IMG/VR virus record: IMGVR_UViG_3300021364_001384
Location: 1-22,927 of that record
DNA length: 22,927 bases
Direction: 5' to 3' (one strand)
Source: a virus
Shown: positions 621 through 21,094 of the stretch, piece after piece
Numbering within the stretch: position 1 is the first letter of the stretch
Layout: the number at the start of each line of letters is the position of its first letter
Translations under genes and position numbers: made by a program
The notes under the pieces: generated by a model
Seen by the model: only the letters and a program-made list of their open reading frames with translations
What the model was told of the DNA's origin: nothing
Database searches by the model: none

Positions 621-1058
621 ATGGCTAGAGTATATAACACTAGACGAATTGCTTCAAATAAAGTATCGTCTGGTGATCAAAATGTAAAATCCTTCACTTA
701 CAAAGGATTTAGCAGTAAAGAAAGTAAAAACGGTTACAAACTGTATGATATAGAACTTGTAAAGCAAGATCTAATCAATCATTTCTATATTCGTAAAGGT
801 GAAAAATTAGAAAATCCTAATTTCGGAACTATTATATGGGATATGATCTTTGAACAGTTCACCGAAGAAGTTAAAAATCTAATAGCAAAAGACGTTGAAG
901 AAGTAATAAACTATGATCCTCGTATTACTGTGAATGAAGTTGCGGTTGACAGCACAGAGCAAGGTATGCGTATTCAAGCAGATATCACATATTTGCCGTT
1001 TAACATCAATGAAAAGATGACTTTTGACTTTGATAGAAATAGTTCAACTATTAACTAA
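621..1058 (+). CDS. gp25: Baseplate wedge subunit gp25 (GPW/gp25 family)
   Basis: The 145-aa product is close to T4 gp25 (132 aa). It has the family pattern: an amphipathic N-terminal stretch leading to YDIELVKQDLINHF (residues 42-55), then RKGEKLENPNFGTIIWDMIFEQ in pieces (G60, P66, FGT 68-70, W73, F77), and the acidic-Pro-Arg core motif as DPRI (residues 99-102), where T4 has EPR. The C-terminus is a short beta region ending in MTFDFDR. gp25-family proteins form the inner wedge core that contacts gp6 and the sheath and starts sheath polymerisation; the same family occurs in type VI secretion and other contractile systems. The gene is flanked by the hub gene 18 bases upstream and gp6 42 bases downstream, the usual company for this family. 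The start is supported by AGGAGG at 606-611. Confidence 0.94.
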   Translation: MARVYNTRRIASNKVSSGDQNVKSFTYKGFSSKESKNGYKLYDIELVKQDLINHFYIRKGEKLENPNFGTIIWDMIFEQFTEEVKNLIAKDVEEVINYDPRITVNEVAVDSTEQGMRIQADITYLPFNINEKMTFDFDRNSSTIN

Positions 1059-1100: not shown

Positions 1101-4100
1101 ATGAGCACCACTGAAAGACAAAACAACTTAATACTTAACGAAGACTGGACTAGGATATATCAGACGTTCAAAAACGCCGATTTTAAGTCCTATGATTTCG
1201 AAAATCTTCGAAGAGTAATTATAACATATCTTAGAGAAAATTATCCTGAAGATTTCAATGATTATATTGAAAGTTCAGAATATCTTGCTCTTATCGATGC
1301 TATTGCTTTTCTAGGCCAAAGTTTATCGTTTAGAATTGATCTTGCTTCAAGAGAAAACTTTATTGAACTAGCAGAACGTAAAGAAAGTGTATTACGTATT
1401 GCACGTATGCTTTCTTACAATGCAAAGCGTAATATTCCTGCTAAAGGGTTGTTAAAATTTACAAGTGTTACAACAACAGAAAATATTGTTGACAGTAACG
1501 GAAGAAATCTAGCACAACAGAATATTCGCTGGAATGATCCAACAAACTCAAATTGGGCAGAACAATTTATTCTTGTATTGAATGCTGCTATGACAAATAA
1601 CGTCGAGTTTGGTAGAAGCCAAGGCAGTGCAAGTATTCAAAGTATTCCTACAGAGCAATATAGATTTAACACTTACTCAACAGATGTTCCTATCTACAGT
1701 TTTTCTAAATCTGTTGCAGGAAGAAGTATGGTGTTTGAGTTATTGAGTACTACATTTAAAAACTCTGAAGAAATTTACGAAGAAGCACCATTTCCTGGAA
1801 ACCAAATGGGATTCGTTTATAGACAGGACGGGCAAGGACCAGCAAGTCCTAATACAGGATTCTACTTTATGTTCAAGCAAGGTTCTTTAGAACTTGCAGA
1901 CTTCACAATTGATGTTCCTACAACAAACGAAAGAGTAAATGTTGAAAGTCAAAATATTAACAATGATGATGTTTGGTTATACCAATTAAACAGCGTAGGT
2001 GCTCAACTACAAGAGTGGACTAAGGTTTCTAGTTTAGTAGGAAACAATATTGCTTATAATAGTGTTTCAGCAAATTTAAGAAATATCTATAGTGTTGCAA
2101 CCAAAGAAAATGATAGAATAGACCTAGTGTTTGCTGACGGTGTCTATGGTAACTTGCCACAAGGGCCATTTAGAGCCTACTATAGAGTTTCAAATGGTTT
2201 GAGTTATAGTATATCTCCAAATGAAATGAAAGGTATTACTATTTCTATTCCGTATATCAACAAGCAAGGCGCACAACATACACTAACTATTGGTCTTGCA
2301 TTACAATATACTGTAAACAGTGCAGCATCTTCAGAAACTTTAGATAGCATTAGAGCAAATGCTCCTGCACAATATTATACACAGAACAGAATGATTACAG
2401 GCGAAGATTATAATCTTGCGCCGTTAACTGCTTCACAGAATATTTTAAAAGTAAAATCAGTAAACAGAACGTCAAGTGGTATTAGTAGAAATTTTGATAT
2501 TATAGATGCAAGTGGAAAATATAGTTCAGTAAATGTATTTGCTGATGACGGATATATCTATAAAGAAGAAGGCGAAAGATATCTTTCATTTAAATTTGAG
2601 AATAGAACAGACATTATTAATTTTATTAAAAATAATGTTGAAAAAGTTTTTACTGACACAGACGTTTACAATTATTATCTTACAAAGTTTGATAAAATTT
2701 TATTCTCTGAACAAAATATTATTTGGACAAGTGTAACCAATGATGTAAATGTAGGTACTGGTTATTTTACTAATACAGTAGATTTAAGTCTACTTAAAGT
2801 AGGAACCTATGCAACTAATAACCTAAAATATCTTGTACCAGGTGCAACAATTAAATTTACACCGCCAGAAGGCCAAGCATTCAAAGACGGAAAACTGGTT
2901 ACTGCTGACAGTACTGATCCTAAGCAGAGAAGTTATATTTGGACAAAGGTAGTCGGTGTTGCAGGCGACGGTACAAATGCAGGCAGAGGAGCTCTTACAT
3001 CAGGATTGGGTCCAGTAACATTTAATGATAATATTCCTAATGGTGCAATTGCAAATAGAATTGTTCCTAAATTTGTATCAGATATTTCAGATAGTATTGA
3101 ATCGCAGATTGTAAACCAGTGTTTTGCTAATTTAAATTTTGGATTGCGTTATGACTTTACAAACGCTAGTTGGAAAATTATTCAAAGCCAAAATGTCAAT
3201 CTAACAAGTTCTTTTAGTTTAGGTAAGTCAGGCGATGTTTCAAGTGAAAATTTAGATGCATCTTGGATTGTTGCTTTTGTAAAAGAAAATGATGAGTACA
3301 TTGTTAGAATTAGAAAACTAGATTATGTATTTGGTAGTATTAAACAGAATAGATTCTATTTCGACAAAAATGAAAAAGCATACAATAACCTAACAGGTAA
3401 ACTAGAAAAAGATACAGTTAAGGTTTTAGGAATCAATACTGATTCTAACGGTATTAATCCTTTAATAAATGATTTTGATTTTGAGATAAGCGATACAATT
3501 CAGTTTGACGATGGTTATGAAAGTACGAACGAAATTAAATTAGCATTTAGCGATGCTGATAGTGATGGAGTAGTAGACAATCCAGAGTCGTTTGAAAATA
3601 TTGTAGGTGAAGATTTAGATTTAAATTATCTATTTTTTGTAGAAGAAACAGATCAATACGGAACAGCGATTTACAATCTTATTCAAGACAGTGATAATAT
3701 ATTGGTATTTCAGAAAGAAAGTCTGGTAAATGTAAACGATTATGAAGACGGTCAATTATTTTATTTTTATGATACTAATGAAAATAGAATAAAGCGTTTA
3801 GACAAAACAACAAACACACTTAGACTAGAAAGTGCATATAAAGCAGTAATAGGAAGAAAAGGTCTTAAGTTCCAATATACTCACGCAGCCAGTGAAGATA
3901 GAAGACTAGATCCTAGTGTAACAAATATTATAGATATCTTTATACTAACAAGAGCATATGATACAACATTTAGAAATGCACTTGCAGCAGGAATTGATTT
4001 ACCAGAAATTCCTAGTAGCGAAGATTTAAGAATTAGTTTTGGTTCTGGATTAAACTCTATCAAAGCAATTAGTGATGAAATAATTTATCATCCTGTACAA

Positions 4101-4496
4101 TATAAAGTATTGTTTGGTAGTAATGCAGATGTAAAACTACAAGCAAAATTTAAAGTTGTTAAAAATCCTCAACTTGCAATTAACGATAATAATTTAAAAG
4201 TAAGAATAGTAAATGCAATTAATACATTTTTTGATATTAACAATTGGGATTTTGGCGATAGATTTTATCTAAGCGAATTAACTACATTTGTAGTAAATTC
4301 TGTTTCACCAGAAATAACAAACTTTACAATTTTACCAAGACAAGAGACACAGGTTTTTGGTAGCCTTTTTGAAATACAAAGTAAGCCAGATGAAATTTTT
4401 GTAAGTGGTGCTACTGTCGATGATATTGAAATAGTTTCGTCTATTACCGCTGCTGAAATCAGAGCTGGTGCAGGTTCAGTAGTGAGTAGTACATAA
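1101..4496 (+). CDS. gp6: Baseplate wedge subunit gp6 (Baseplate_J-like), enlarged
   Basis: The 1131-aa protein has a T4 gp6-like N-terminus: NEDWTRIYQTFKNADFKSYD (residues 14-33), then the helical stretch with LIDAIAFLGQSLSFRIDLASR and ARMLSYNAKRNIPAKG. Baseplate_J signatures follow: FADGVYGNLPQGPF (about 344) and NAPAQYYTQNRMITGEDYN (about 419), the typical aP..y....r.iT.eDy pattern. The C-terminal quarter has NAINTFFDINNWDFGDRFYLSEL, a standard gp6/Baseplate_J ending. gp6 dimers form the continuous ring of the baseplate that holds wedges together and relays the trigger to the sheath. T4 gp6 is 660 aa, so about 450 residues are extra, mostly between residues 440 and 960. This insert contains a canonical EF-hand-type loop, DADSDGVVDNPE (818-829). 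TAGGAA at 1088-1093 serves as the ribosome site. The stop overlaps the next start (TAATG), indicating coupled translation. Confidence 0.93.
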   Translation: MSTTERQNNLILNEDWTRIYQTFKNADFKSYDFENLRRVIITYLRENYPEDFNDYIESSEYLALIDAIAFLGQSLSFRIDLASRENFIELAERKESVLRIARMLSYNAKRNIPAKGLLKFTSVTTTENIVDSNGRNLAQQNIRWNDPTNSNWAEQFILVLNAAMTNNVEFGRSQGSASIQSIPTEQYRFNTYSTDVPIYSFSKSVAGRSMVFELLSTTFKNSEEIYEEAPFPGNQMGFVYRQDGQGPASPNTGFYFMFKQGSLELADFTIDVPTTNERVNVESQNINNDDVWLYQLNSVGAQLQEWTKVSSLVGNNIAYNSVSANLRNIYSVATKENDRIDLVFADGVYGNLPQGPFRAYYRVSNGLSYSISPNEMKGITISIPYINKQGAQHTLTIGLALQYTVNSAASSETLDSIRANAPAQYYTQNRMITGEDYNLAPLTASQNILKVKSVNRTSSGISRNFDIIDASGKYSSVNVFADDGYIYKEEGERYLSFKFENRTDIINFIKNNVEKVFTDTDVYNYYLTKFDKILFSEQNIIWTSVTNDVNVGTGYFTNTVDLSLLKVGTYATNNLKYLVPGATIKFTPPEGQAFKDGKLVTADSTDPKQRSYIWTKVVGVAGDGTNAGRGALTSGLGPVTFNDNIPNGAIANRIVPKFVSDISDSIESQIVNQCFANLNFGLRYDFTNASWKIIQSQNVNLTSSFSLGKSGDVSSENLDASWIVAFVKENDEYIVRIRKLDYVFGSIKQNRFYFDKNEKAYNNLTGKLEKDTVKVLGINTDSNGINPLINDFDFEISDTIQFDDGYESTNEIKLAFSDADSDGVVDNPESFENIVGEDLDLNYLFFVEETDQYGTAIYNLIQDSDNILVFQKESLVNVNDYEDGQLFYFYDTNENRIKRLDKTTNTLRLESAYKAVIGRKGLKFQYTHAASEDRRLDPSVTNIIDIFILTRAYDTTFRNALAAGIDLPEIPSSEDLRISFGSGLNSIKAISDEIIYHPVQYKVLFGSNADVKLQAKFKVVKNPQLAINDNNLKVRIVNAINTFFDINNWDFGDRFYLSELTTFVVNSVSPEITNFTILPRQETQVFGSLFEIQSKPDEIFVSGATVDDIEIVSSITAAEIRAGAGSVVSST

Positions 4497-7400
4497 TGGC
4501 AGATAAGAAAAACTTTCCAAGTAGCGGATTACCTATTAGAAGAAACAGTGACTTTCTTCCAGAAATTTTCCGTACGGATGCAAACAAAAAATTCTTTGCT
4601 GGAGTTTTTGATCCGTTAACACAGCCTGGAGTTGTAGATAAAATTGTAGGCTATTTAGGTAGACGATATGGAAAGACGTATAACAATAATGATACCTATT
4701 TAGATTCAGATGAAACATTAAGAAGTAGATATCAGTTAGAACCTGGTGTTGTTGTTGAAAAAGATCAGAAAATAGAAAAATTTTATGATTATCTAGATCA
4801 AAAAAACATTATTAAGTTTTTTGGTAATGATATTGATAGAGATGATAAAATCTTTTCACAAGAACATTACACTTGGAATCCACCTATTGATTGGGATAAG
4901 TTTTCAAACTATAGAGAATATTTTTGGGTACCATCAGGTCCTCCTAGTGTTACTGTTCAAGGACAAGCAGCCTCTATTACAAGTACATACAAAGTAAGAA
5001 CCGCTGTTGGCAGTTCTTGGATTTTTACTCCTGACGGAGCAACTAATAATCCTAACATTATTTTATATAGAGGACAAACTTACAATTTTGATCTAAACAA
5101 TACAGAAGGTTTTGTAATTAGAACAAATTATGATACAGGCTCGTTAAATTATGATCCTGATAGAACATATTTTCCAGGTGAACTTGCAGTATTCGATGGC
5201 AACCTCTGGAAAGCGAAAGTAGAAGTAAGCCCAGCAGACGGAAGTACAATTACAGAAGAAAGCCAAGACTGGGAACTTATTGACAGCAGTACATCTAATG
5301 TAGCACTACTGTATAATAAAGGTATAACAAATAACGGAACAAAGAAAGGAACTTTAACGTTCGAAGTTCCAATGGATGCTCCTGACTTACTTTATTATCA
5401 ATCAGATGTAGACCCTAACAGAGTAGGACAATTTGTAATTGCAGATATTGATACCAATACATTTTTAGATGTAGAGAAAGATGTTATTGGTAAAAAAACT
5501 TATACAAGTTCAAACAATATAGAATTTACAAATGGACTTGTAGTTGAATTTACAGGAACCACCCTTCCTGAAAAATATCAAGAAGGTACCTGGCTAGTTG
5601 AAGGTGTAGGAAAAGAAATCACACTTACACAATTTAGTGATCTTGTTCCACCGCAGGTAACAATAGACACACCAGAGATATTATTTGATAATGAAGGATT
5701 TGATACGCAACCTTTTGATGATGCAAGTCAGTATCCTGGTGCAAAAGACTATATTACAATTGCGAGAAACAGTAAAGATTCTAATCCCTGGTCTAGATAC
5801 AATCGTTGGTTTCATAGAAGTGTATTAGAATTTGCCTATAATCAAAGAAATTCTAGTTTTGAAGCAACAGAACAAACTAGAGCAAAAAGACCTATTATAG
5901 AATTTCATCCTAATATACAGTTGTACAATCACGGTACAATTGCAAAACAAACTGTAGATTATGTCGATACATTTACTACAGACGTTTTTTCAAATATTGA
6001 AGGAAGTTTAGGTTATAACGTAGATGGCGAATTCTTATTTGAAGGTGCTAGAGTACTTGTAATTGCAGATACTGATGGTTTAGCAAATAATAAAATATAC
6101 GAAGTTAAATTTATAAATCACAACGGTAGAAGACAGATTACATTAGTACAAACTGAAGATTCAGAAAGTTTACTTAACGAGTGTGTTCTAGTAAGACGTG
6201 GTAGAGATAATGCAGGTATTATGTATCATTACAACGGTACAAACTGGGTACCTAGTCAGCCTAAAACGTCAGTTAACCAATCACCTATGTTTGAAATGTT
6301 TGACAAAAACAATAATGCTTTTTCAGACGAGACGACATATCCTGTAAGTACATTTTTTGGAACAAAAATTATAAGTTATACACAAGGCAATGGTCGAATT
6401 GATTCTGAATTAGGGTTTGCACTATCCTATCTTAATATTGATAATGTAGGCGATATACAATTTGATTGGAACCTAGATAAAGATTCATTTACATATGCAG
6501 AAGGTCAAGATACTGTTGTAAAAAATATTAATACCGGATATTTGAAAATTGATGGAAATTTTGATAATGGGTGGACAGCACTAGCCACAGATTATCAAAT
6601 GCCTATGATAGACACATATGTACTAGACGAAGAATCAAATGAAGTTATATTAAACACAGTTGATTGGGGGAAACTTTCTGGTGATGAGAAAATTATATTC
6701 TACACTAACGGTGTAAGAGAAAACGCAAATTATACAAGAACCGGAAATGTATTTGCATTTGAAAAAACATTTGCAAAAAGAGATTCAGTATCAGTAAAAA
6801 TTATTTGTGATTTAGATCCTATTGACGGATACTATGAGATGCCAATAGGCCTAGAGAAAAATCCATTAAACACACCTAATAAAAAATTTACTCTTGGACA
6901 AGCAACTGATCATATTTTAACAAGTTTAGAATTCAGCGATGAATTTAAAGGCACATTACCAGGTGTAAGCAATCTAAGAGATTTAAGTAGTTTTCAACAA
7001 CACGCAAAACGTTTTATAAAGCATAGCGGTATTGCACCTGCGTCTGTTGCACTATTAAATGACAAAAATATTAACATAATTAAATCTTTACAATACGCAA
7101 AAACTGCATACAGTGTTTTTAAAAATAACTTTTTATTAAAAAGTACTGAAGTTGAATTCAATGAAAATATTCCTGATTTTGTAGACGGTATACTAGAAAG
7201 ACTAAACAAAACAAAAAGTATCGACAGCCCATTTGCGGATAGTGATATGGTTGGTACTGGTGCATACAATTCGCTAGATTATACTGTAGAAGATACAGGA
7301 ATTAAGACCTTTGCCTTAAGTGAAAACTTTAATTTAGAAAGTCTAAGCAGACGTGCTGTTTATGTTTATATAAACAATGTACAGTTATTGAATGGCGCCG

Positions 7401-10400
7401 AGTATACCTTTGACAGTAATTTTGGATTTGTTACAATTTCTAAAACACTGGTACAAGGTGATGTAATACAGATTAGAGAATATATTTCAACTAGTTTCTG
7501 TCATATACCTCCTACACCTACAGCATTAGGATTGTATAAAAAGTATACTCCATCTAAATTTATCGATGACACATATAGAGAACCTCAAGAAGTAATTCAA
7601 GGACACGATGGCAGTATTACAATTGCCTATGGAGATTATAGAGATGATCTTATACTTGAATTAGAATATAGAATTTATAATAACATTAAGAACGAATACA
7701 ATAATAAAGTTTTTGATATTGATGCAATTCTAGGCGGGTATTATGGTAACAGTGAATATAATGTAAAAGAAATTTCTGATATTGTAAATCAAGAATTTTT
7801 AAAATGGGTATCAAATACAAATCTAGGTTATGTGCAAAATTCTTATTTTGTAGAAACTGAACCGTTTACATATACCTATAATCAAATGGCTGATCCTACA
7901 GGATCTGAAAACTTACCTGGTTATTGGAGAGGAGTATATAGATACTTCTATGATACAGATAGACCTCATAGATGTCCTTGGGAATGTTTAGGGTTTTCTG
8001 AAAAGCCAACTTGGTGGGAAGAAGAATATGGTCCGGCACCTTATACAAACGGTAACTTAATTCTTTGGGACGATATTAAAGATGGAATTATTAGACACGG
8101 TCCAAGACAAGGAATACACCCCAGATATGCTAGAACAAGCATTACTAAACACTTGCCCGTTGATGCAGACGGTAATTTAGTTGATCCACTTACAAGTGGT
8201 CTTGCAACTAATTTTACATTACAGAATAATAAAGGAAGTTTTCAATTAGGCGATGTAGGCCCTGTCGAATATGCTTGGAAATCTAGCAGTGAATATCCTT
8301 TTGCAATTTGTTCTGCACTTTGTTTAATTAAACCGTTTGATTTTATAATTGAAAATTTTGATAAAAACAAAACAATAAGAAACGCAGTTGATCAAATTGT
8401 AAGTAAAACTACAGACGTCTTTATTACAATTGACGATTTAAAATTACCAGTTGCAGGCAGTGACGAATTACAAAGTGGTTTAGGATTTTATGTAAGTGCA
8501 TATGTAAAATCAAAAGGACAATCAGTACAAGATGCTCAAGACATATTGTCAAATCTAAATGTTAAACTTACATCAAGACTAAGCGGGTTTGTTGATAAAG
8601 ACCAACAAAGATTTTTAACTGACAGTAAAAATCCTAATTCAACAAGCAGTAGTACTTTTATTCCACCTGAAAATTTTGATATTATTTTCAGTGTTGGTAG
8701 CCCAATTGCTAGTCTATCATACAGTGGTGTAATATTAGAAAAAAGTGATAGAGGTTGGATTGTAAATGGTTATAACGATCTCGAACCATACTTTAGATAT
8801 TTTAGTGCAATACCTAACCAAAAAGACCCTACAATAAGTGTAGGAGGTATCAGTGAAACATTTACAGTATGGGAAGAAAATCAAACCTATAATAATGGAT
8901 CTATAGTAGAATATAGAAATGATTATTGGAGAACCAACCAAACACATACAAGTACAACCGAGTTTGATAAAAATCTTTGGAGAAAGTTGCCGGCACTTCC
9001 ATTAGTAAACGCAACTACGGCCCAAAGAAGAAGAAACTTTAATAACACTGTTGTTAGAAAATTAAGTTATGGTGAACAATTAACATCAATCCAAGATGTT
9101 GTAGATTTCTTATTAGGATATCAAGAATATCTAAAATTCCAAGGCTTTGTTTTTGAAAATTATGATCCTAGAAATCAAGTAGTACAAGATTGGATTACAA
9201 GTGCGAAAGAATTTATGTTTTGGAGTAAACATAACTGGGCAGTAGGAAGTTTAATTACACTAAGTCCAGGTGCAGAACGTTTAGAGATAAATGTTCCAGT
9301 TGGCGTTGCAGATAATATTCTTGATAGTTTTTATGACTATAATGTGCTAACAGATAAAGGAACCACAATTGATACAAAAAATATTGATGTATCTCGTGAC
9401 TTCCAAAAATTTGTAATTAATACTACAAATACTACAGAAGGAATTTACTATCTAAAAGTAAATTATGTTCTTAAAGAACACGTTGCTGTTTTTGATGATA
9501 GAACAGTCTTTAATGATGTAATATTTGATAAGCCAACAGGATATAGACAGGAAAGAATAAAATGTCAAGGTTTCCGTACTGTTGATTGGGACGGCGATTA
9601 CACTTCACCTGGTTTCTTGTTTGACAATGTAAAAATTAATGTTTGGCAGCCTTTTAGAAATTATCGATTAGGTGACATTGTTGCATACAGATCAAAAAAT
9701 TATACAAGCAAATATAATCACACAAGTGGTGAAAATTTTGATAATAGAGATTGGACTGTATTAGATAGCACACCTAGTAAACAACTTATACCTAACTACG
9801 ATTATCGTATTAATCAAATAGAAGACTATTTTGATGTTGATACTGATGGACTAGGCAAAAGTCAACGTGACCTTGCAAGGCATACAATAGGTTATCAAAC
9901 TAGACAGTATTTAGAAGCACTTGCAGAAGATCCTACAACACAGTATAAGATCTATCAAGGTTATATCAGAGAAAAAGGATCAAGTAACAGTATCTCTAAA
10001 TTGTTTGATAAAATCAACGGTAGTGGTGAACCTAGTGTTTCTCTAGACGAAGAGTGGGCATTTAGAGTTGGTAAACTTGGCGGCATCGATCAGTCTTATA
10101 ATATAGAATTAAAACTACAAACAGATCAGTTTGTTATAAATCCTCAACCTTTATTACTTACTGATGAAGAAAGAATTAATCCTGACAGATATTATAGAAT
10201 AGGAAAAAGCGGATTTGATTATGCGCCAGTTCCTTTTAGTTATGATGTCAATCCAGTATCATATGAAGCAGTACCAACAAGAACTGCTGGTTATGTAAAA
10301 ATTGGCCAGACACAGTATAATGTAAAAACTAGAAACGATTTATCTAATTTAGATATCGACAGTTTACAAAATAATGACCATATATGGATTACATTTGACG

Positions 10401-13400
10401 GACCAAGTTGGTCAGTCATTCGTGCAAACTTTGCATACGATCTACCTATAATTGGTGTGGAGATAGAACAAAACAAAGTTACATTACAATTTGCACGTAG
10501 ACACAACAAGGCAGTTGATGATTTTGTAGGAGTTAAAGGCATTGATGACATCAGTGGTATACATAAAATCACCGAAGTCAGTAACTTTACAGTTTCTTAT
10601 TTGTTAGAAAAAAATGCATCTCCTGATGTATTTGAACCTAGTACATTAAAGTATCCTGCATTCTTTACAGAAGCAAGATTTAAAAACTATGATGAACTAT
10701 CACCAGAACACGTTGCTCTACTAGAAAATGGTAGTAAAATGTATATTGATGATAACGGTGATAATAAATGGGAAGTTATTGAAAAAAATAAATCTTATAC
10801 TGATAAGAAAATTGAAAACTTTGGATTATCGGATCCAGACAGAGCAGGCGAAAAAGTTGTCTACAGTGATGTATTGAAACAAACACTAGTAGGAATCCCT
10901 CACAGTGGTTATGTTATATCATATGTAGAAACACCGACTGGTCTTGATTTAAAACAAATTGTTGAACCATTATCAGAATTCCGTGATGAAGTACTAGGAA
11001 GTTTTGGAAAAGAAATTGCAATTAGTCCTGATAGCAGATGGCTAGCAGTAGGATCTCCTTTAGCAAGTGGAATCAAATCAAATTACAAAGGAGCATTTAA
11101 TCCGGCAGGTTTTTATGTTACAGGCGACATTGTTTTATATAATGGAAAATTATATAAAGCAACTAGAAATATCCAAGGCGACGGAAGTACAATTAATGTA
11201 TATACAGAAGATTGGGAATACGTAAGAAACATAGAAGCACTTACATCAGGTTCTTCAGATGGACAAACTCAGCAAGGAATGATTTCTATATATGAGTTTT
11301 CGGCAAATCAATGGAACTTACGTTTTAACTTTATCAGTCCTCGTCCGGCTGACTTTGAATATTTCGGAAGTAAAATTACACTTGCAGTCAATGGTAACAA
11401 ATACCATATGGCAGTTAGTGCTACAGGATCTAGGGATGGTAAAGGTAGAGTATATCTTTACACCTATGACAACGAACAATGGACTTTAGATGAAAATCCT
11501 AATTATCAAGGTGTATATGATAATGATGCATCTAAGTTTTATCCTAAAGGATCTACAGTATGGTATGAAGGTTATCTATGGCAGGCACTAGAAGATAATT
11601 ACGGCGACGGTAGTACACTTAATATTGATAGTGTTGATTGGTTACGACTTGATGCTGTAACTACAGAAAATAGTTTACCTCAATCTGTTAGTATTGATGT
11701 AGCAGACGATAACAGTACACTATTTGCAGGCCTGCTATCACCTAATCAGGTTGCAGAACTTATTATGGAAGGTGATCAATTTGGTAGTTCACTTGCTATG
11801 AGCTATGACGGAAGTGTATTAGTTGTTGGTGCTCCTAATAGTGATAAACAATTTTTTGCAAACTACAGAGGAATTTGGAGACCTGACTTTGAATATAAAT
11901 CAGGAGATGTAGTAAAATATCAAAACAGTTATCATCAACTAGAAAATATTGGACCTAGTGCTGTAGATGATGGTAGTACAATTAGAAGTTATAACGAAGA
12001 ACCTGATAGAGGTTATCCGTGGGTCAACGTAGGCGATAGTAGTTCTGAAGCAACAGGTAGAGTGTTTATCTATAGACGAGACGAAGACTATGGATATAAA
12101 TTAGTACAGGCAATTGCTGCGGATGGATTAGCAGATATTAGTGATCTAGATGTAAATGAACAAATTAATTCAGGAGATCAGTTTGGTAAAAGTATTGCTA
12201 TAGATTATAGCGGTAACACAATTGTTGTAACAAGTCCTAAAGCAGATATTAACTTTCAGAATCAAGGTAGTGCATATGTATTTAGATATGACAGTGACAG
12301 CACAGGAACACAAGATTATAGACTGAAACAAAAATTACAAAGTTACGATAAGTTTCCAAATGAATTTTTTGGACAAGATGTTTGTATTTCGCCAAACACT
12401 GAAATTGTAGCCATTGGTGCAAGTAATAGTCCTTTTGTATTACCAACAATATTTGATAATTCTGGAACAGAATTTGATCAAAACAGGACTACATTTAAAT
12501 CCTACAGCGGTTTTGCTGGTAGTGTTTATGTGTTTGAATTAAAAAATAATACATATTATCTATCAGAAAAACTAGAAAGCGAACTTTCTTTAAATGAAAG
12601 TTTCGGACATAGTATCAGTTGTACAAAAGATACAATTGCAGTAGGATCACCAAACTATGTAGCACCTGCACCACACGGAGTACAAATTGCATTCGAAGGT
12701 GATCAAACTGGTATGGCAAGACTGTTTAAGAAAGATCCAGATGTCAAACCATTTGCTGTTTTAAATTCTCAACCAGCAACGGTTGATATAGAACAAGTAA
12801 AAAGAATTAGTCTGTACGACAACAATTCAGATGATAAAATTCAAGATCTAGAAATAATAGATCCTGCTAAGTTGAAAATACTTGCGGCTGCTGAAAGAGA
12901 ACTAAGTTATAAAACACCTTTTGACCCTGCAGTATACAGTGTAGGTAATCCAGATGAACAAATTGTAGATGATCAAATTTCTTGGACAACAAAGAATGTA
13001 GGTAAGTTATGGTGGAATATTGGCAATGCTAAATGGATTGACTACGAGCAAGGAGATATTGCATATAGATCTACTAACTGGGGAAGACTTGCTGAAGGAG
13101 CAAGTATTGATATTTACGAATGGGTAGAATCAAAGTTATTACCAAGCGAGTGGTCAGCAATTGCTGATACTAACGAAGGTTTACAAGTAGGTGTTAGCGG
13201 ACAGCCATTGTATCCAGATAATACTGTTTATTCTCAGAAAAAATTATACAACACAAACACCGGCGAAGAAACCGAAACTAGATATTACTATTGGGTTAGA
13301 AATAAATTAATCAAACCTAAAGATATTGTAGGCAGAAATATTAGTGCAAGTACTGTCGCAAGTCTAATTCGTGATCCGTTCTCTGTAGGTAATACATTTA

Positions 13401-16400
13401 TTGCACTTGCAGACAGTAATAAATTTATTTTATACAATTATACTTCTATAGTTTCAAACGATTATGCAGTATTAAACATAGAATACTATAATAGTAAAGA
13501 ACGTAAAAATGCAGTTCATAGAGAATATCAACTGTTAACAGAAGGTGTTGCAGATAGTCTACCTGCTGACAAATTAGAACAAAAATGGATTGACAGTTTA
13601 ATAGGTTATGACAAGCAAGGTAATAGAGTACCTGATACTGATTTACCTGATAAGCAAAAATACGGTGTTATGTTTAGACCAAGACAAAGTATGTTTGTGA
13701 ATAATCGTAAGATATTAGAAACAACTATCAAAAAGATTAATTCTATACTTTTAAAAGAAGCATTTGCAGATACTATCAGTTATGCTAACTTAAATCTTAC
13801 AGACACACAGCCTGCAGAAATTTTAAATTTATATGATACTAAAGTTACAGGTATTGATGATTTAGAAAATGTAGGTACTATACGAGTTAAAAAAGCAGAA
13901 CTATCTGCGAATATAATTGACGGTGAAGTTGTAAGTATAGATGTTATAGATCCTGGCTATGGTTATAGAGTTGCGCCAACAATTGATTTTGAAGGCGACG
14001 GTGTAGGTGTACAGGCACAAACGGTTATTGATAATCAAGGTAGATTGTCACAGGTAAATGTAATAGCACGTGGTAGAAGATATAATAATCTAATAGCAAA
14101 AGTTAGAAACTTTAGTGTGCTTGTAGAATCAGACAGCACAGCAAATAACTACTGGTCAATCTATGCCTGGGACGATATAAGAAAAACATTCTTTAGAAGT
14201 GCATCACAAGCATTTGATACAACACGTTATTGGTCAAAAATTGATTGGTGGGCAGAAGGTTATAGTTCAAATAGTAGAATTGTAAAAGAAATTTTAAGTG
14301 TATACGAAGAACCAACTACAAATTTACTTGTAGGTGATTTATTACGTATCAAAGAATACGGCACAGGCGGCTGGGCAGTATTTGAAAAACTAGATGCTAC
14401 AGGTAATACTCTATTAGAAAATTACAAACTTGTAGGCAGACAAAATGGCACACTTGAATTAAGCGATAGATTATACAATACCGATACAAGCGGAATAGGT
14501 TATGATATTGTAGATAGTTTTGATGCAGGTGTATATGACAAAGAAGTTTCAAATGAATTAAGAAATATATTTAAAGCAGTTAAAGAAGACATTCTGACTA
14601 ACCAATATGCTGTAGAATGGAATAACTTATTCTTTATCAGTGTTAGATACGCATTACAAGAACAAACTTATGTAGACTGGGCATTTAAAACAAGTTTCTT
14701 AAATGCTGCTTACAAAGTAGGAAAACTAGAACAAAAATTAAACTATAAGAATGATAGCCTTGATAGTTATCTAGAATATATTAATGAAGTTAAACCGTTT
14801 AGAACAACTATTAGAGAATATAAATCTATATACGATAATATTGATAACGCAAATACCGCAATAAGTGATTATGACTTGCCGCCATATTTCAATGAGGCAC
14901 AGGGCGAAATTATTCCGGTTACTGAAACAGATGATGTTTTACAAAATTATCCTTATAGATTCTATACTGACAACGCAGGTTATGAAATTACATCAATAGA
15001 TGTTTCTAATGCAGGTAGTGGTTACACCAGTATTCCTAGAGTTGTTATTCAAGGAAATGGAACTGGTGCAAAAGCAACAGCATTTATTTCTAATGGTAAA
15101 CTAAGCGGAGTAAGAGTTGATAATCCAGGTAAAGGTTATACAAAAACGCCAACAGTTTCTATAGTAGGTGGTAATGGCGATAATGCCGATACTGCAAAAG
15201 TAGTTGCTATTCTTGGTAATACTAAAATCAGAACACTCGATGTCAAGATGAAACTTGATAGAATTACCAAAGATGGTGTGTATAATGATTTTAATTTTAG
15301 TCAATCATTTACTGCGTCAGGCAGCAGTTCTGTTTTTGAATTAAGTTATCCTTGCGCAATAGAAAAATCTAAAATAGAAATTATCAAAGACGGACAACTA
15401 GTTCTTAATAATGAATATACAGTTAGCCTATATAGACAAAATATTGATAACTTTAATCAATTAAAAGCAAAAATTACATTTGTTGAAGCACCAGCAGCAG
15501 GTAGTGTTATCGATATTACATATGAGAAGAATGTAGAGTTACTTGATAGTGTAAACAGAATTCGTAAACATTATCAGCCTACCGCAGGTATGAAAGGTAC
15601 AGATCTTGATCAACTTATGACAGGTATTGATTACGGAGGTGTACAAGTTCAAGGAACAACTTTTGACGTTACAGGCGGCTGGGACGCACTTCCTTGGTTT
15701 ACAGATAGTTGGGATAGTGTAGAAGCAGCAGCAGACTATTATATTGTTTGTGACGGAAGTACACAGGCAGTTACATTACCTTATATTCCAGGTGATGGAC
15801 AAGAATTAAACATCTATCTAAAACGTGCAGGTTCTGGTGCACCAAGATCAGTTGATGAATTACAGTATTCTGAACAAGTTGATGAACCTAAAGCAGTTCG
15901 TATAGATGATCCTAATTACACAGACGCCTGGGACAGCAGTATTGCAACTAATCCTGCTGCACAGATGCCAACGTTTGTAGGAGACGGAAGTACTCAATCA
16001 GTAGAAATTGGACAGTACATTCAAACGAATCCTGGAGATATTTTAATATTTAGACCTATATCTTCAGATGGTAGTGTTACTATTAATGATCCTAATCTTG
16101 TTGACACTAAAATATCTGGCGGAAGTTTAGAAACACTAGATAAAGCGTATAGTACAGCACAAGGTAACACACCTGAAGAAATTGCAATCATCGGTGGTAG
16201 TTTTATATCTCCCGAAAATGTACCAGCACCGGAAGAAAATATTCCTGGACAGGTTTTAGATAGTTTAAGTATTAAAGTATATCAAACAACAGGTAGCGGT
16301 GCAGCACCTTTACAAAGTAAAGTACAAAACGGTGATGGCACAACTACTAGATTCTCAATAGGACAAAATATCTTAGAATCTAATTCGGTTTTAGTTTATG

Positions 16401-18256
16401 TGGATGGAATTAGACTTGACGCAGATCAATATCTAGTAGATCTTGCTGATAATGTTGTTGAATTAGATATAGCACCCGAACTTGGAAAACTAGTTGAGAT
16501 TCTAAGTATTGGTATTGGTGGTGTAAGTTTATTGGATTATCAAGAATTTACAGCAGACGGAGAAACAAACCTATTTTTAACTAATGCACCGTTCGAACTT
16601 ACAGCAAACACATTTGTTTCTGTAAACGGTGTTCGTGAAGATGTTGGTTTTGTAAACAGCACAGGTATTGCAGACACACCGGATAGAACACTTGTACAGT
16701 TTGGTATTACACCAGACAGAAATAGTGTTATTAAGATAGTGTGTCTAGGAGCAAGTTCAGATGTTGACAGCACTAACCTTGCAATTGTAAGGGTTAACAA
16801 ACAGGAATTAGTGTATGACGGAAGCACAAGATCATTTGATTTAGATAATTTTGTTCAACTTACAAGGGAAAGTCCTGTTTCTTCAATGGTTGTTACCATT
16901 AACGGTAATAAATTAAAAGGAGTTGATACAACTTATGCTGTGTATGACGGAACAAATAATTCATTTACACTAGGTATTGATCCTTTTGAAGCATCGGGTG
17001 CTATTCTAACAGATAATATTTCTGTATTTGTAAATGAAGAAAGAAAAACATTTATTCAAGATTATGTTTATAATGGTACAACAAAATTACTTGAAATTGA
17101 CAGCACAAAATTAAGTGTTGGTGATGTTATTAAAATTGAAAATGATTTTAGATCACAATATACTGTGTTAGAAAATAATCTTGTGATAGATAGTGCAGTC
17201 ACTTTAACAACAGGTGACACGATCGATGTAACTTGGTTTGGTGAATATCCAAGTATGGCTGTTGTAAGCGATAGATTCACTGGAGGTAAATCGGTATTTG
17301 AACTTCCATTCAAACCATTAAGTGTAAGTTATGTTTGGGTTTATAAAAACGGTGAAAGATTAAAACAAGATTTTGATTATGTTGTTGATCTTCCTAGAGG
17401 CGTTTTAAGAGTGTTAACAGGAACAGTGCCTGCAGATGAAATTTCAATCACTATGTTTGGTGCACAAATATTTAAATTGCCAAGAGCATATGAAATTAAT
17501 AAAGATATGTTGAACGTATATAGATATACACGTTTTGCTGCTAATGATGATATTAGATTAGCAAAAGATTTAAATTATTTTGATACTGAGATCGAAGTTA
17601 CAAACGGACATCTATTAGCAGAACCAATTACAGAACGTAATATTGCAGGTGTTGTAGTTATTAACAGCGAAAGAATACAGTATTTAGAAAAAGACGGCAA
17701 TATATTAAGAAAATTACGCAGAGGTGCGTTAGGAACTGCTGTAAAAGAACTGCACAATAAAGACGATATAGTAGTAGATGCAGGCGCTCCTGAAAATATT
17801 CCATACAATGATACTCAAGATAGAACAGATTTTGTGAGTGATGGAAGCAGCCAACTAATTGGACCGCTTGATTTTGTTCCAATTCAAGCAGCAGATGCAA
17901 ATTGGTACAGTGAAACTATACCAAGCGACTATGGTAGATGTGATACTATTGAAGTGTTTGCTGGCGGAAAGCGTATGAGAAAGAATTCATTAACAGTTTT
18001 TGATGAATCACTAGGTGCAAATAGCCCTAGTGCAGATAAACAAGTTGAAGCAGAGTTTGCTGTAGACGGTTCAAGTCCATATATAAGACTAACTAAACCA
18101 CTACCTGCTGGAACTAGAATTAGTATACTAAGGAAATTGGGTCAAACTTGGTACGATAGAGGCACTACAACCGCTACTAGCGGCATTACATTGCTGGATA
18201 ATAATACTGCAATTAGTAAGTTCATTGCTGCTAAGAGTACGAGATTACCTGAATAA
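4496..18256 (+). CDS. Giant virion structural protein (4586 aa), baseplate/tail-associated, likely adhesin
   Basis: This one open frame of 13.8 kb begins at the TAATG overlap with gp6. No convincing SD is visible, so translation is probably coupled to gp6. The N-terminus (residues 1-150; FFAGVFDPLTQPG, YLGRRYGKTY, W.PPIDWDKFSNYREYFWVP) and several blocks resemble the very large structural proteins encoded beside gp6 in marine T4-like phages, from memory. These blocks are the Trp/Pro-rich stretch at 1143-1199; LARHTIGYQTRQYLEAL; EEWAFRVGKLGG near 1850; WIDYEQGDIAYR; and YEWVESKLLPSEW. Order after that: CBM5/12-like modules at about 219, 1456, 1714, 2196, 2337 and 2456; an FG-GAP-like propeller at 2118-2760; GxGY repeats near 3147 and 3498; tandem beta modules from about 3600; and a conserved C-terminal block, VVVINSERIQYLE (about 4386). 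It has no signal peptide or membrane segment. By position it replaces T4 gp7-gp11, suggesting a wedge-attached, sugar-binding, host-contact protein. Structural role is likely; the exact function is inferred. Confidence 0.9.
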   Translation: MADKKNFPSSGLPIRRNSDFLPEIFRTDANKKFFAGVFDPLTQPGVVDKIVGYLGRRYGKTYNNNDTYLDSDETLRSRYQLEPGVVVEKDQKIEKFYDYLDQKNIIKFFGNDIDRDDKIFSQEHYTWNPPIDWDKFSNYREYFWVPSGPPSVTVQGQAASITSTYKVRTAVGSSWIFTPDGATNNPNIILYRGQTYNFDLNNTEGFVIRTNYDTGSLNYDPDRTYFPGELAVFDGNLWKAKVEVSPADGSTITEESQDWELIDSSTSNVALLYNKGITNNGTKKGTLTFEVPMDAPDLLYYQSDVDPNRVGQFVIADIDTNTFLDVEKDVIGKKTYTSSNNIEFTNGLVVEFTGTTLPEKYQEGTWLVEGVGKEITLTQFSDLVPPQVTIDTPEILFDNEGFDTQPFDDASQYPGAKDYITIARNSKDSNPWSRYNRWFHRSVLEFAYNQRNSSFEATEQTRAKRPIIEFHPNIQLYNHGTIAKQTVDYVDTFTTDVFSNIEGSLGYNVDGEFLFEGARVLVIADTDGLANNKIYEVKFINHNGRRQITLVQTEDSESLLNECVLVRRGRDNAGIMYHYNGTNWVPSQPKTSVNQSPMFEMFDKNNNAFSDETTYPVSTFFGTKIISYTQGNGRIDSELGFALSYLNIDNVGDIQFDWNLDKDSFTYAEGQDTVVKNINTGYLKIDGNFDNGWTALATDYQMPMIDTYVLDEESNEVILNTVDWGKLSGDEKIIFYTNGVRENANYTRTGNVFAFEKTFAKRDSVSVKIICDLDPIDGYYEMPIGLEKNPLNTPNKKFTLGQATDHILTSLEFSDEFKGTLPGVSNLRDLSSFQQHAKRFIKHSGIAPASVALLNDKNINIIKSLQYAKTAYSVFKNNFLLKSTEVEFNENIPDFVDGILERLNKTKSIDSPFADSDMVGTGAYNSLDYTVEDTGIKTFALSENFNLESLSRRAVYVYINNVQLLNGAEYTFDSNFGFVTISKTLVQGDVIQIREYISTSFCHIPPTPTALGLYKKYTPSKFIDDTYREPQEVIQGHDGSITIAYGDYRDDLILELEYRIYNNIKNEYNNKVFDIDAILGGYYGNSEYNVKEISDIVNQEFLKWVSNTNLGYVQNSYFVETEPFTYTYNQMADPTGSENLPGYWRGVYRYFYDTDRPHRCPWECLGFSEKPTWWEEEYGPAPYTNGNLILWDDIKDGIIRHGPRQGIHPRYARTSITKHLPVDADGNLVDPLTSGLATNFTLQNNKGSFQLGDVGPVEYAWKSSSEYPFAICSALCLIKPFDFIIENFDKNKTIRNAVDQIVSKTTDVFITIDDLKLPVAGSDELQSGLGFYVSAYVKSKGQSVQDAQDILSNLNVKLTSRLSGFVDKDQQRFLTDSKNPNSTSSSTFIPPENFDIIFSVGSPIASLSYSGVILEKSDRGWIVNGYNDLEPYFRYFSAIPNQKDPTISVGGISETFTVWEENQTYNNGSIVEYRNDYWRTNQTHTSTTEFDKNLWRKLPALPLVNATTAQRRRNFNNTVVRKLSYGEQLTSIQDVVDFLLGYQEYLKFQGFVFENYDPRNQVVQDWITSAKEFMFWSKHNWAVGSLITLSPGAERLEINVPVGVADNILDSFYDYNVLTDKGTTIDTKNIDVSRDFQKFVINTTNTTEGIYYLKVNYVLKEHVAVFDDRTVFNDVIFDKPTGYRQERIKCQGFRTVDWDGDYTSPGFLFDNVKINVWQPFRNYRLGDIVAYRSKNYTSKYNHTSGENFDNRDWTVLDSTPSKQLIPNYDYRINQIEDYFDVDTDGLGKSQRDLARHTIGYQTRQYLEALAEDPTTQYKIYQGYIREKGSSNSISKLFDKINGSGEPSVSLDEEWAFRVGKLGGIDQSYNIELKLQTDQFVINPQPLLLTDEERINPDRYYRIGKSGFDYAPVPFSYDVNPVSYEAVPTRTAGYVKIGQTQYNVKTRNDLSNLDIDSLQNNDHIWITFDGPSWSVIRANFAYDLPIIGVEIEQNKVTLQFARRHNKAVDDFVGVKGIDDISGIHKITEVSNFTVSYLLEKNASPDVFEPSTLKYPAFFTEARFKNYDELSPEHVALLENGSKMYIDDNGDNKWEVIEKNKSYTDKKIENFGLSDPDRAGEKVVYSDVLKQTLVGIPHSGYVISYVETPTGLDLKQIVEPLSEFRDEVLGSFGKEIAISPDSRWLAVGSPLASGIKSNYKGAFNPAGFYVTGDIVLYNGKLYKATRNIQGDGSTINVYTEDWEYVRNIEALTSGSSDGQTQQGMISIYEFSANQWNLRFNFISPRPADFEYFGSKITLAVNGNKYHMAVSATGSRDGKGRVYLYTYDNEQWTLDENPNYQGVYDNDASKFYPKGSTVWYEGYLWQALEDNYGDGSTLNIDSVDWLRLDAVTTENSLPQSVSIDVADDNSTLFAGLLSPNQVAELIMEGDQFGSSLAMSYDGSVLVVGAPNSDKQFFANYRGIWRPDFEYKSGDVVKYQNSYHQLENIGPSAVDDGSTIRSYNEEPDRGYPWVNVGDSSSEATGRVFIYRRDEDYGYKLVQAIAADGLADISDLDVNEQINSGDQFGKSIAIDYSGNTIVVTSPKADINFQNQGSAYVFRYDSDSTGTQDYRLKQKLQSYDKFPNEFFGQDVCISPNTEIVAIGASNSPFVLPTIFDNSGTEFDQNRTTFKSYSGFAGSVYVFELKNNTYYLSEKLESELSLNESFGHSISCTKDTIAVGSPNYVAPAPHGVQIAFEGDQTGMARLFKKDPDVKPFAVLNSQPATVDIEQVKRISLYDNNSDDKIQDLEIIDPAKLKILAAAERELSYKTPFDPAVYSVGNPDEQIVDDQISWTTKNVGKLWWNIGNAKWIDYEQGDIAYRSTNWGRLAEGASIDIYEWVESKLLPSEWSAIADTNEGLQVGVSGQPLYPDNTVYSQKKLYNTNTGEETETRYYYWVRNKLIKPKDIVGRNISASTVASLIRDPFSVGNTFIALADSNKFILYNYTSIVSNDYAVLNIEYYNSKERKNAVHREYQLLTEGVADSLPADKLEQKWIDSLIGYDKQGNRVPDTDLPDKQKYGVMFRPRQSMFVNNRKILETTIKKINSILLKEAFADTISYANLNLTDTQPAEILNLYDTKVTGIDDLENVGTIRVKKAELSANIIDGEVVSIDVIDPGYGYRVAPTIDFEGDGVGVQAQTVIDNQGRLSQVNVIARGRRYNNLIAKVRNFSVLVESDSTANNYWSIYAWDDIRKTFFRSASQAFDTTRYWSKIDWWAEGYSSNSRIVKEILSVYEEPTTNLLVGDLLRIKEYGTGGWAVFEKLDATGNTLLENYKLVGRQNGTLELSDRLYNTDTSGIGYDIVDSFDAGVYDKEVSNELRNIFKAVKEDILTNQYAVEWNNLFFISVRYALQEQTYVDWAFKTSFLNAAYKVGKLEQKLNYKNDSLDSYLEYINEVKPFRTTIREYKSIYDNIDNANTAISDYDLPPYFNEAQGEIIPVTETDDVLQNYPYRFYTDNAGYEITSIDVSNAGSGYTSIPRVVIQGNGTGAKATAFISNGKLSGVRVDNPGKGYTKTPTVSIVGGNGDNADTAKVVAILGNTKIRTLDVKMKLDRITKDGVYNDFNFSQSFTASGSSSVFELSYPCAIEKSKIEIIKDGQLVLNNEYTVSLYRQNIDNFNQLKAKITFVEAPAAGSVIDITYEKNVELLDSVNRIRKHYQPTAGMKGTDLDQLMTGIDYGGVQVQGTTFDVTGGWDALPWFTDSWDSVEAAADYYIVCDGSTQAVTLPYIPGDGQELNIYLKRAGSGAPRSVDELQYSEQVDEPKAVRIDDPNYTDAWDSSIATNPAAQMPTFVGDGSTQSVEIGQYIQTNPGDILIFRPISSDGSVTINDPNLVDTKISGGSLETLDKAYSTAQGNTPEEIAIIGGSFISPENVPAPEENIPGQVLDSLSIKVYQTTGSGAAPLQSKVQNGDGTTTRFSIGQNILESNSVLVYVDGIRLDADQYLVDLADNVVELDIAPELGKLVEILSIGIGGVSLLDYQEFTADGETNLFLTNAPFELTANTFVSVNGVREDVGFVNSTGIADTPDRTLVQFGITPDRNSVIKIVCLGASSDVDSTNLAIVRVNKQELVYDGSTRSFDLDNFVQLTRESPVSSMVVTINGNKLKGVDTTYAVYDGTNNSFTLGIDPFEASGAILTDNISVFVNEERKTFIQDYVYNGTTKLLEIDSTKLSVGDVIKIENDFRSQYTVLENNLVIDSAVTLTTGDTIDVTWFGEYPSMAVVSDRFTGGKSVFELPFKPLSVSYVWVYKNGERLKQDFDYVVDLPRGVLRVLTGTVPADEISITMFGAQIFKLPRAYEINKDMLNVYRYTRFAANDDIRLAKDLNYFDTEIEVTNGHLLAEPITERNIAGVVVINSERIQYLEKDGNILRKLRRGALGTAVKELHNKDDIVVDAGAPENIPYNDTQDRTDFVSDGSSQLIGPLDFVPIQAADANWYSETIPSDYGRCDTIEVFAGGKRMRKNSLTVFDESLGANSPSADKQVEAEFAVDGSSPYIRLTKPLPAGTRISILRKLGQTWYDRGTTTATSGITLLDNNTAISKFIAAKSTRLPE
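5150..5284 (+). repeat. CBM5/12-like module A of the giant protein
   Basis: Residues 219-263 follow the pattern Y..dr.Y.pGe.a.fdg.lWkAk......DGST......DWELID. This is the short aromatic three-strand pattern of chitin-binding-type (CBM5/12) modules: early Tyr, Gly before a hydrophobic strand, Trp/Tyr-x-A, and a final Asp-Trp. It shares ADGST...DW with modules D, E and F. Confidence 0.55.
7922..8092 (+). other. Trp/Pro-rich conserved block of the giant protein
   Basis: Residues 1143-1199 are unusually aromatic: YWRGVYRYFYDTDRPHRCPW, then LGFSEKPTWWEEEYG and PYTNGNLILWDDI. It contains two of the protein's few cysteines (in HRCPWEC). I recall close versions in giant proteins of marine myoviruses; the density of Trp, Pro and Tyr suggests a tightly packed, strongly conserved core. 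No enzymatic motif is recognised. Confidence 0.5.
8861..8992 (+). repeat. CBM5/12-like module B of the giant protein
   Basis: Residues 1456-1499 read F.vWeenqtYnnGSiVeYrndYWrTnqtHtSttEFDknLWRKLP. This is the classic W...Y..G..V.y...yW.......s...f....W pattern of short carbohydrate-binding or fibre modules. It lacks the GDGST loop of modules A and D-F and resembles module C instead. Confidence 0.6.
9635..9769 (+). repeat. CBM5/12-like module C of the giant protein
   Basis: Residues 1714-1758 contain VWQPFRNYRLGDIVAYRSKN, then YTSKYNHTSGENFDNRDW. The W..f.nYrlGDIVaYr..nY pattern and closing Asp-Trp match module B closely in spacing. Confidence 0.6.
11081..11230 (+). repeat. CBM5/12-like module D inserted in the propeller
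   Basis: Residues 2196-2245: NYKGAFNPAGFYVTGDIVLY, then NGKLYKATRN, QGDGST and EDWEYV. It lies between the VGSP strand and the GMISIYEF strand of one propeller blade and shares GDGST...DW with A and E. Confidence 0.62.
11504..11656 (+). repeat. CBM5/12-like module E inserted in the propeller
   Basis: Residues 2337-2387: YQGVYDNDASKFYPKGSTVW, then YEGYLWQALED, GDGST and VDWLRL. It sits after the outer strand of the second FG blade (GRVYLYTYDNEQWTL) and before the next FG strand at 2429. Confidence 0.62.
11861..12036 (+). repeat. CBM5/12-like module F inserted in the propeller
   Basis: Residues 2456-2514 begin NYRGIWRPDFEYKSGDVVKY, followed by QNSYHQLEN, DDGST and a longer loop before PWVNV. 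It is inserted between VVGAP and GRVFIYRR of the third FG blade, at the same blade position as module D, and starts with the same NY(R/K)G. Confidence 0.6.
13931..14092 (+). repeat. GxGY-type beta repeat, copy 1, in the giant protein
   Basis: From about residue 3146: VSIDVIDPGYGYRVAPTIDF, then EGDGVGVQAQTVID and GRLSQVNVIARGRRY. The pattern V..pG.GY...P.i.f.g.G.ga.a...v..G.l..v.v...G..Y is repeated more perfectly at 14987-15175. It is a beta-rich structural repeat with no known catalytic role. Confidence 0.55.
14987..15175 (+). repeat. GxGY-type beta repeat, copies 2 and 3, in the giant protein
   Basis: From residue 3498 two half-repeats follow each other: ITSIDVSNAGSGYTSIPRVV with GNGTGAKATAFISNGKLSG, then VRVDNPGKGYTKTPTVSIVG. 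Both have the sequence V..aG.GYt..P.V.i. This is the clearest instance of the motif in the protein. Confidence 0.62.
15302..18150 (+). repeat. Tandem beta-sandwich-like modules, C-terminal part of the giant protein
   Basis: About ten units share a common plan: a strand F.(a/g)dGst..F.l, a loop, then a V.vnG.rl..g.dY.v strand pair, and a closing gd.I.i strand. Recognisable starts include FTASGSSSVFEL (about 15308), DGSTQAVTLP (about 15750), DGSTQSVEIG (about 15983), GDGTTTRFSIG (about 16331), FTADGETNLFLT (about 16547), DGSTRSFDLD (about 16817), YNGTTKLLEI (about 17069), FTGGKSVFELPF (about 17276) and DGSSQLIGPL (about 17838). A non-repeat insert with VVINSERIQYLE and LRRGALGTA lies at about 17649-17790. 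Such modules usually form extended rods or fibre shafts. Confidence 0.6.
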
Positions 18257-18259
18257 ATA
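18252..18259 (+). promoter_or_regulatory. T4-type late promoter overlapping the giant gene's stop codon
   Basis: AATAAATA matches 7 of 8 positions of the T4 late consensus TATAAATA and fully matches the NATAAATA form reported for T4-like cyanophages. It overlaps the TAA stop at 18254-18256. With T4 spacing, transcription would start near 18265, giving about a 20-base leader before the ATG at 18285. It would let the 214-aa protein and the fibre genes be expressed independently of the 13.8-kb gene. No late sigma factor or co-activator gene is visible here to confirm the system. Confidence 0.65.
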
Positions 18260-18284
18260 CACTATGAAAACCGAAGAGAAAAAT

Positions 18285-21080: not shown

Positions 21081-21094
21081 TTAGGTAGATATAA

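Follow-up and report, generated by a model that had tools for sequence, protein, structure and literature searches.

In contractile tails, the gene for the wedge subunit gp7 is expected directly behind that for gp6. T4 gp7 (1032 aa), P2 gpI (176 aa), and XM1 gp17 (242 aa) all lie behind gp6/J in gene order, and each is expected to pair with two copies of gp6. The (gp16)2-gp17 complex of phage XM1 is a homologue of (gp6)2-gp7 of T4, with the tail spikes attached to loops of gp17 (PMC10457771), and in T4 firing of the baseplate is accompanied by an outward swing of gp7 domain A (PMC3004832). Giant single chains behind gp6 are already known as well, both in RaK2-like phages and among the gp7-type giants of cyanophages, which measure 4156 aa in S-SM2 (gp7), 4225 aa in ACG-2014f, and 4878 aa in Sf-CH5. 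What is new here is the assignment of such a jumbo-phage giant to gp7, which is unproven, together with a comparison between two lineages of giants, and we regard both as useful additions.

The DNA analysed (hereafter the window) is an IMG/VR virus fragment of 22,927 bases, in which only part of the baseplate cluster is visible, and all of its genes lie on the + strand (Table 1). At the 5' end we found the 3' part of a gene with a match to hub lysozymes of the gp5 type, then the genes of a gp25-like and a gp6-like wedge protein, the latter matching also phrog_219 (E 2e-22) and TIGR02243 (E 1e-8). The gp6-like protein is the expected partner of the giant, and the two genes overlap, the stop of the former with the start of the latter. 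The gene order parallels 6-7 of T4 and W-J-I of P2. Behind the giant there are a small partner gene, which likely starts at the ATG at 18264 rather than at the TTG at 18225, a gp12-like collar-domain fibre and, at the 3' end of the window, the start of another fibre gene, with which the collar fibre has its N-terminal domain in common.

Table 1. Features of the window and of the giant protein that it encodes (residue numbers refer to the giant).
Feature	Position	Strand	Remarks
gp25-like wedge protein/sheath initiator	621..1058	+	PF04965, 38.9 bits (cut-off 27.2)
gp6-like (Baseplate_J class) wedge protein, 1131 aa	1101..4496	+	phrog_10646, E 2e-294
Giant ORF, phrog_10938 family	4496..18256	+	4586 aa, ATG start, TAA stop
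Conserved core 1, residues 1-1900	4496..10195	+	Alignable in every jumbo relative, apart from segment 201-300
Possible gpI/gp7 N-terminal core-bundle helices ('LLPxIFQTxAN'), residues 15-60	4538..4675	+	Weak hhalign match
Beta module, residues 265-317	5288..5446	+	phrog_677 positions 360-410; common to tail-fibre and gp9/gp10-type proteins
CBM_5_12, residues 1459-1488	8870..8959	+	Pfam 31.3 bits (cut-off 26.2); PDB chitinase A1 1ed7, E 0.004
CBM_5_12-like, residues 1717-1747	9644..9736	+	Pfam 25.2 bits, just below cut-off; PDB 7b5h All3316, E 0.018
Putative gp7/gpI wedge-core module, residues 1760-1870	9773..10105	+	KGT(S)...EEWAF...GG motif
Variable insert, residues 1950-2790	10343..12865	+	FG-GAP repeats and CBM5/12-like modules
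Three FG-GAP_2 repeats, approximately residues 2425-2451, 2558-2596, 2700-2719	11768..12652	+	Pfam 24-35 bits (cut-off 23)
Conserved core 2, residues 2790-3460	12863..14875	+	In all relatives
GSGY-type module 1, residues 3131-3208	13886..14119	+	Common to cyanophage baseplate and neck proteins
GSGY-type module 2, residues 3491-3590	14966..15265	+	Origin of the phrog_460 'gp14' match
C-terminal RG..GT module, residues 4351-4414	17546..17737	+	hhalign 89.7%, E 1.8e-6; same module inside cyanophage gp7
Small partner gene, phrog_11259, 234 aa	18264..18929	+	Present in every relative examined
gp12-like collar-domain fibre, 715 aa	18933..21080	+	PF07484, E 2e-19

The giant ORF runs through 4586 codons with no internal stop, just as the preliminary description of this DNA had claimed. 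It takes up 60.0% of the window (13,761 of 22,927 bases), and the encoded protein has a predicted mass of 515 kDa and a pI of 4.7. By comparison, 100 Markov simulations of the window gave no stop-free frame longer than 167 codons. The G+C contents at codon positions 1, 2, and 3 (0.46, 0.37, and 0.17) reveal a strong codon-position bias, the differences from the relative L008 (0.295, 0.229, and 0.521 per codon position, respectively) fit a protein under selection, and an uninterrupted giant frame of 4427-4964 codons is found in 36 related IMG/VR loci. With the intact frame, the bias, the pattern of differences, and these 36 loci taken together, chance and assembly artefact are excluded and the giant ORF is real. 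The frame is broken at least once, at differing places, in L017, L019, L039, L055, and L064, which we have taken as assembly or sequencing errors or as single decayed copies.

By HMM comparison the giant matches phrog_10938, a 'virion structural protein' (E 0, 1058.6 bits). A tblastn search with residues 1-2000 retrieved 60 phage records, all below 60% identity (24-29% among the phage matches listed), including Atu_ph07 (Agrobacterium), the PA5oct group, Phosso (Sinorhizobium), SCTP-2 (Salicola), and RaK2-like enterobacterial phages; a megablast of phages gave no match. There are also 66 related IMG/VR loci, mostly 42-67% identical to the giant in the best segment. The homologues have 3326 aa in RaK2 (ORF070), 3771 aa in Vibrio 2.275.O, 3807 aa in SCTP-2 (gp140), 3857 aa in PA5oct (gp355), and 4449 aa in Atu_ph07 (gp180), and the window giant is longer than those of RaK2, PA5oct, SCTP-2, and Atu_ph07 (4586 vs. 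3326-4449 aa), to which it is only 24-29% identical over the length; with these, and probably with phAPEC6, it has the segments 1-1900 and 2790-3460 in common. The gene order gp25-gp6-giant is kept in PA5oct and Atu_ph07 and gp6-giant in RaK2, and SCTP-2 has no gp6-sized gene directly upstream of its giant. In SCTP-2, a second giant of 3096 aa (gp141, L070:6609-15899) lies directly upstream of the 3807-aa one.

Both phrog_10938 and the tblastn relatives place the lineage with the RaK2/PA5oct-type jumbo myoviruses, and the label "marine T4-like" given to it earlier has to be abandoned. The ends of the protein had likewise been described as of marine-myovirus type. This did not hold for the N-terminal part, of which about 1900 residues match jumbo relatives only, and a profile made from them failed to match a core in those cyanophage giants that were tested; what stood is that the C-terminal half contains modules shared with cyanophages, although only short ones. 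The expectation of a virion protein was borne out for the family by mass spectrometry in relatives of the window phage. PA5oct gp355 is flagged in its record as detected by ESI-MS/MS, placing it in the virion. The 381.9-kDa gp245 of phAPEC6, which we assigned to the family by gene position and size, gave 17 unique virion peptides (7.6% coverage) and adjoins gp244, a 'baseplate wedge' (PMC7247149), and CBB_236, assigned by gene position, gave 21 virion peptides and adjoins the gp6-like CBB_237 (PMC5259590). The giants of PA5oct, phAPEC6, and probably CBB are thus virion proteins.

The phrog_11259 gene is located directly behind the giant, or one or two small genes further on, in most relatives, and in RaK2 some 7 kb from it on the other strand. 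The sequence ATAAATAC (window 18253-18260) resembles the core of T4-type (gp55) late promoters, and a site of this type was found at the giant stop codon or within a few bases of it in all nine sequences checked (the window, L004, L021, L013, L016, L033, L038, L048, and L028); it probably serves the partner and fibre genes as their late promoter. The consecutive fibre genes (window 18933-22927; L004:24624-33921) start with one common N-terminal domain (phrog_14394/15511/8309) and then diverge, and they may represent a paralogous fibre set for one docking site.

Conservation along the chain was read from an alignment of 26 giants. More than 100 invariant residues, kept across all relatives, fall within the segments 1-1900 and 2790-3460, and RaK2, PA5oct, and Vibrio 2.275.O lack all or part of a stretch at about 200-340. 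The same three phages have a much shorter 1950-2790 insert, and the FG-GAP/CBM5/12 content of this insert is fuller in the window giant. The earlier suspicion of ligand-binding-type domains in the middle of the protein proved right, with Pfam scores of 67 bits for FG-GAP_2 and 59 bits for CBM_5_12, both above the cut-offs; PDB matches of the FG-GAP region to integrin alpha are weak. Since these modules sit mostly in variable segments, they are mainly additions. To our knowledge there are no modules of the CBM5/12 or FG-GAP kind in T4 gp7, P2 gpI, or XM1 gp17, which are 4 to 26 times smaller than the giant. Searching PDB sequences with profiles of the cores gave no baseplate-wedge chain and only CBM-type, integrin-type, and All3316 matches. 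Those to All3316 (7b5h), from the contractile injection system of Anabaena, are weak and lie at residues 1717-1794 and 2407-2443, in CBM5/12-like modules. The giant of L001 and L053 (identical in their overlap and from consecutively numbered samples, hence treated as one case) is 62% identical up to residue 3889, where an unrelated, fibre-like C-terminus begins (L053:21758-23278), and this looks like a C-terminal module swap. The genes behind the giant are different in L053 as well, and the swap together with this change fits a docking role of the C-terminus.

The gene order gp6-giant, the profile matches described below, and the lack of any other gp7, neither a separate gp7 (phrog_964) nor a gpI (PF09684) being detected in the records searched, make one reading the best: in a jumbo myovirus of the RaK2/PA5oct type, the giant would serve as the wedge subunit of the gp7/gpI class and would have grown to about 515 kDa through additions inside the chain and at its C-terminus (we put its probability at roughly 0.68). 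A profile of 123 non-redundant gpI proteins, scanned over 40 slices of the giant, peaks at residues 1761-1980 (score 27.4, E 0.0028), in an alignment resting on KGT...EW...GG. None of 300 column shuffles reached this score (maximum 24.2), and 38 decoy slices of other structural proteins from the same phages gave at most 20.3. An independent profile, built on the N-terminal parts of cyanophage, phiM12, and X1 gp7, matches the same 1760-1870 site (29.8 over 57 columns, 0 of 300 shuffles, maximum 22.7), and more strongly residues 4351-4414 (probability 82-90%, E 1e-5 to 2e-6, 0 of 192 shuffles). Within the site, K1827 and G1828 are invariant in 26 of 26 giants, RaK2 and SCTP-2 included. A KG[T/I] motif is also present in T4 gp7, P2 gpI, and XM1 gp17, with hydrophobic positions at similar spacing behind it and, in gpI, EW/GG in addition.

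This likeness is visible only in profile-profile comparisons. The matches of the two profiles to the giant are short (33-58 columns, with hhalign probabilities of 11-14%), and the case for 1760-1870 rests on position, motif, and shuffle controls and not on one decisive score. However, the accepted gp7-gpI pair scores only 26.8-28.9 with the same tool, so that no more than a modest score is to be expected of true homologues in this case. Aligning slices of the giant with hhalign to a six-sequence T4 gp7 profile found nothing, and against T4 gp8, gp9, gp10, gp11, gp12, gp53, and gp6 the only finding was the GSGY module shared with cyanophage gp8/gp7. The PF09684, TIGR02242, and phrog_964 HMMs do not match the giants either; as T4 gp7 itself goes undetected by PF09684 and TIGR02242, the failure of these two on the giant is uninformative. 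A gp7-like wedge fold had originally been expected at the N-terminus, and of this expectation the gp7/gpI-type core module is retained, with its strongest match at 1760-1870, while the match of the N-terminal helices (residues 15-60) to the gpI profile is weak (score 20.3, E 0.016, one of 200 column shuffles equally high).

The modest scores and the lack of matches to standard gp7/gpI HMMs would also be compatible with a giant other than gp7 at the baseplate periphery, serving there as an arm or adhesin platform. The actual gp7/gpI would then be another, unrecognised small protein, e.g., the 234-aa partner (phrog_11259), which is as widespread in the family as the giant itself, or the product of a short upstream gene, and the KGT motif a coincidence or a borrowed helix pair. 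We consider this rather unlikely, given that the motif belongs to the conserved core with its K-G pair invariant, that two independent profiles agree on it with shuffles and decoys scoring lower, and that the 234-aa protein gave no match to the gpI, gp7core, gp53, gp9, and gp11 profiles. The partner had been considered as gp8, gp53, gp11, or gp7, and these identities were dropped as profile comparison gave them no support.

Much less probable is that a single polypeptide replaces gp7, gp8, gp9, gp10, and gp11 (wedge arm, pin, and fibre connector), as the preliminary description had proposed, and as the place of the giant between gp6 and the gp12-like collar fibre and the matches to phrog_438 (gp8) and phrog_677 (gp9 connector) could suggest. 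These matches involve positions 172-285 of phrog_438 and 360-410 of phrog_677, whereas T4 gp8 uses 3-86 and 441-478 (139-185 weakly) and T4 gp9 uses 3-112, and the modules behind them are mobile, being present also in cyanophage giants, neck proteins, and fibres. Moreover, PA5oct encodes a gp10-type sequence in an ORF of its own, the long contigs G001 and G002 have gp9/gp10-type N-terminal domains elsewhere than in the giant, and in the window the collar fibre has its own gene, all of which speaks against a takeover of gp8-gp11. Identities as gp8, gp9, or gp14 based on phrog_438, phrog_677, and phrog_460 were dropped as module sharing. Finally, a repetitive tail fibre or adhesin with no baseplate-scaffold part, for which the CBM5/12, FG-GAP, and GSGY modules and the fibre-like C-terminus of L053/L001 could be quoted, is hardly credible beside the linkage to gp6/gp25, the gp7/gpI-type core, and two segments conserved to a degree that fast-evolving fibres are not.

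The gp7/gpI-class reading of the giant finds a parallel in the cyanophages. Large structural proteins near gp6 are known in marine T4-like phages, and the gp7-type giants of cyanophages have 4156-7022 aa. The largest, annotated as gp8 in S-MbCM6 (L081:3280-24348, 7022 aa), has a gp7 core (FYSTKGT...LFKLLYGENV) near residue 704, and its annotation is probably wrong or incomplete; it also lies directly behind gp6, like the giant of the window. On this reading, both lineages have a gp7-class giant chain with the KGT core motif and with RG..GT and GSGY modules. They differ in the position of the core, at approximately residues 190-700 in the cyanophage giants and 1800 in ours, and in that of the RG..GT module, before the core in the former and at the C-terminus in the latter. 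Long core segments of the jumbo giants have no detectable similarity to the giants of S-MbCM6 and S-H9-1, which, together with the different core position, hints at a separate enlargement in jumbo phages and cyanophages, the alternative being common ancestry followed by divergence.

By analogy with XM1 gp17 and T4 gp7, the giant would be anchored at its KGT core to two gp6-like chains, with its arms extending over the periphery. One copy per wedge (six per baseplate) would join two gp6-like copies through a conserved core made up of a short helical part and the KGT module (1760-1870), and the rest of the chain would form a large peripheral arm. In this arm the CBM5/12 and FG-GAP modules may contact glycans or ligands of another kind, and docking of the small partner protein and of the collar fibres encoded downstream may fall to the C-terminal third. 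The binding of a receptor at the periphery could then be transmitted through the chain to gp6 and gp25, leading to release of the sheath.

A wider implication, which we put forward tentatively as a possibility, is that the universal wedge subunit gp7/gpI has grown into a giant scaffold on two or more occasions (with the core at about residue 1800 in jumbo phages and near the N-terminus in cyanophages), fusing receptor-contacting modules into the wedge chain, so that ligand binding would act on the gp6-gp7 trigger with no separate connectors. These giants of 330-515 kDa are among the largest phage virion proteins, and in the records examined they are annotated only as 'structural' or 'hypothetical'. 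Naming them gp7/gpI gives them a testable role and would close an apparent gap in the jumbo-phage baseplate, where gp6 and gp25 were found and gp7 was not. It also points to where host-binding modules may be plugged in, and suggests that differently named cyanophage giants (one of them 'gp8') carry a gp7 core.
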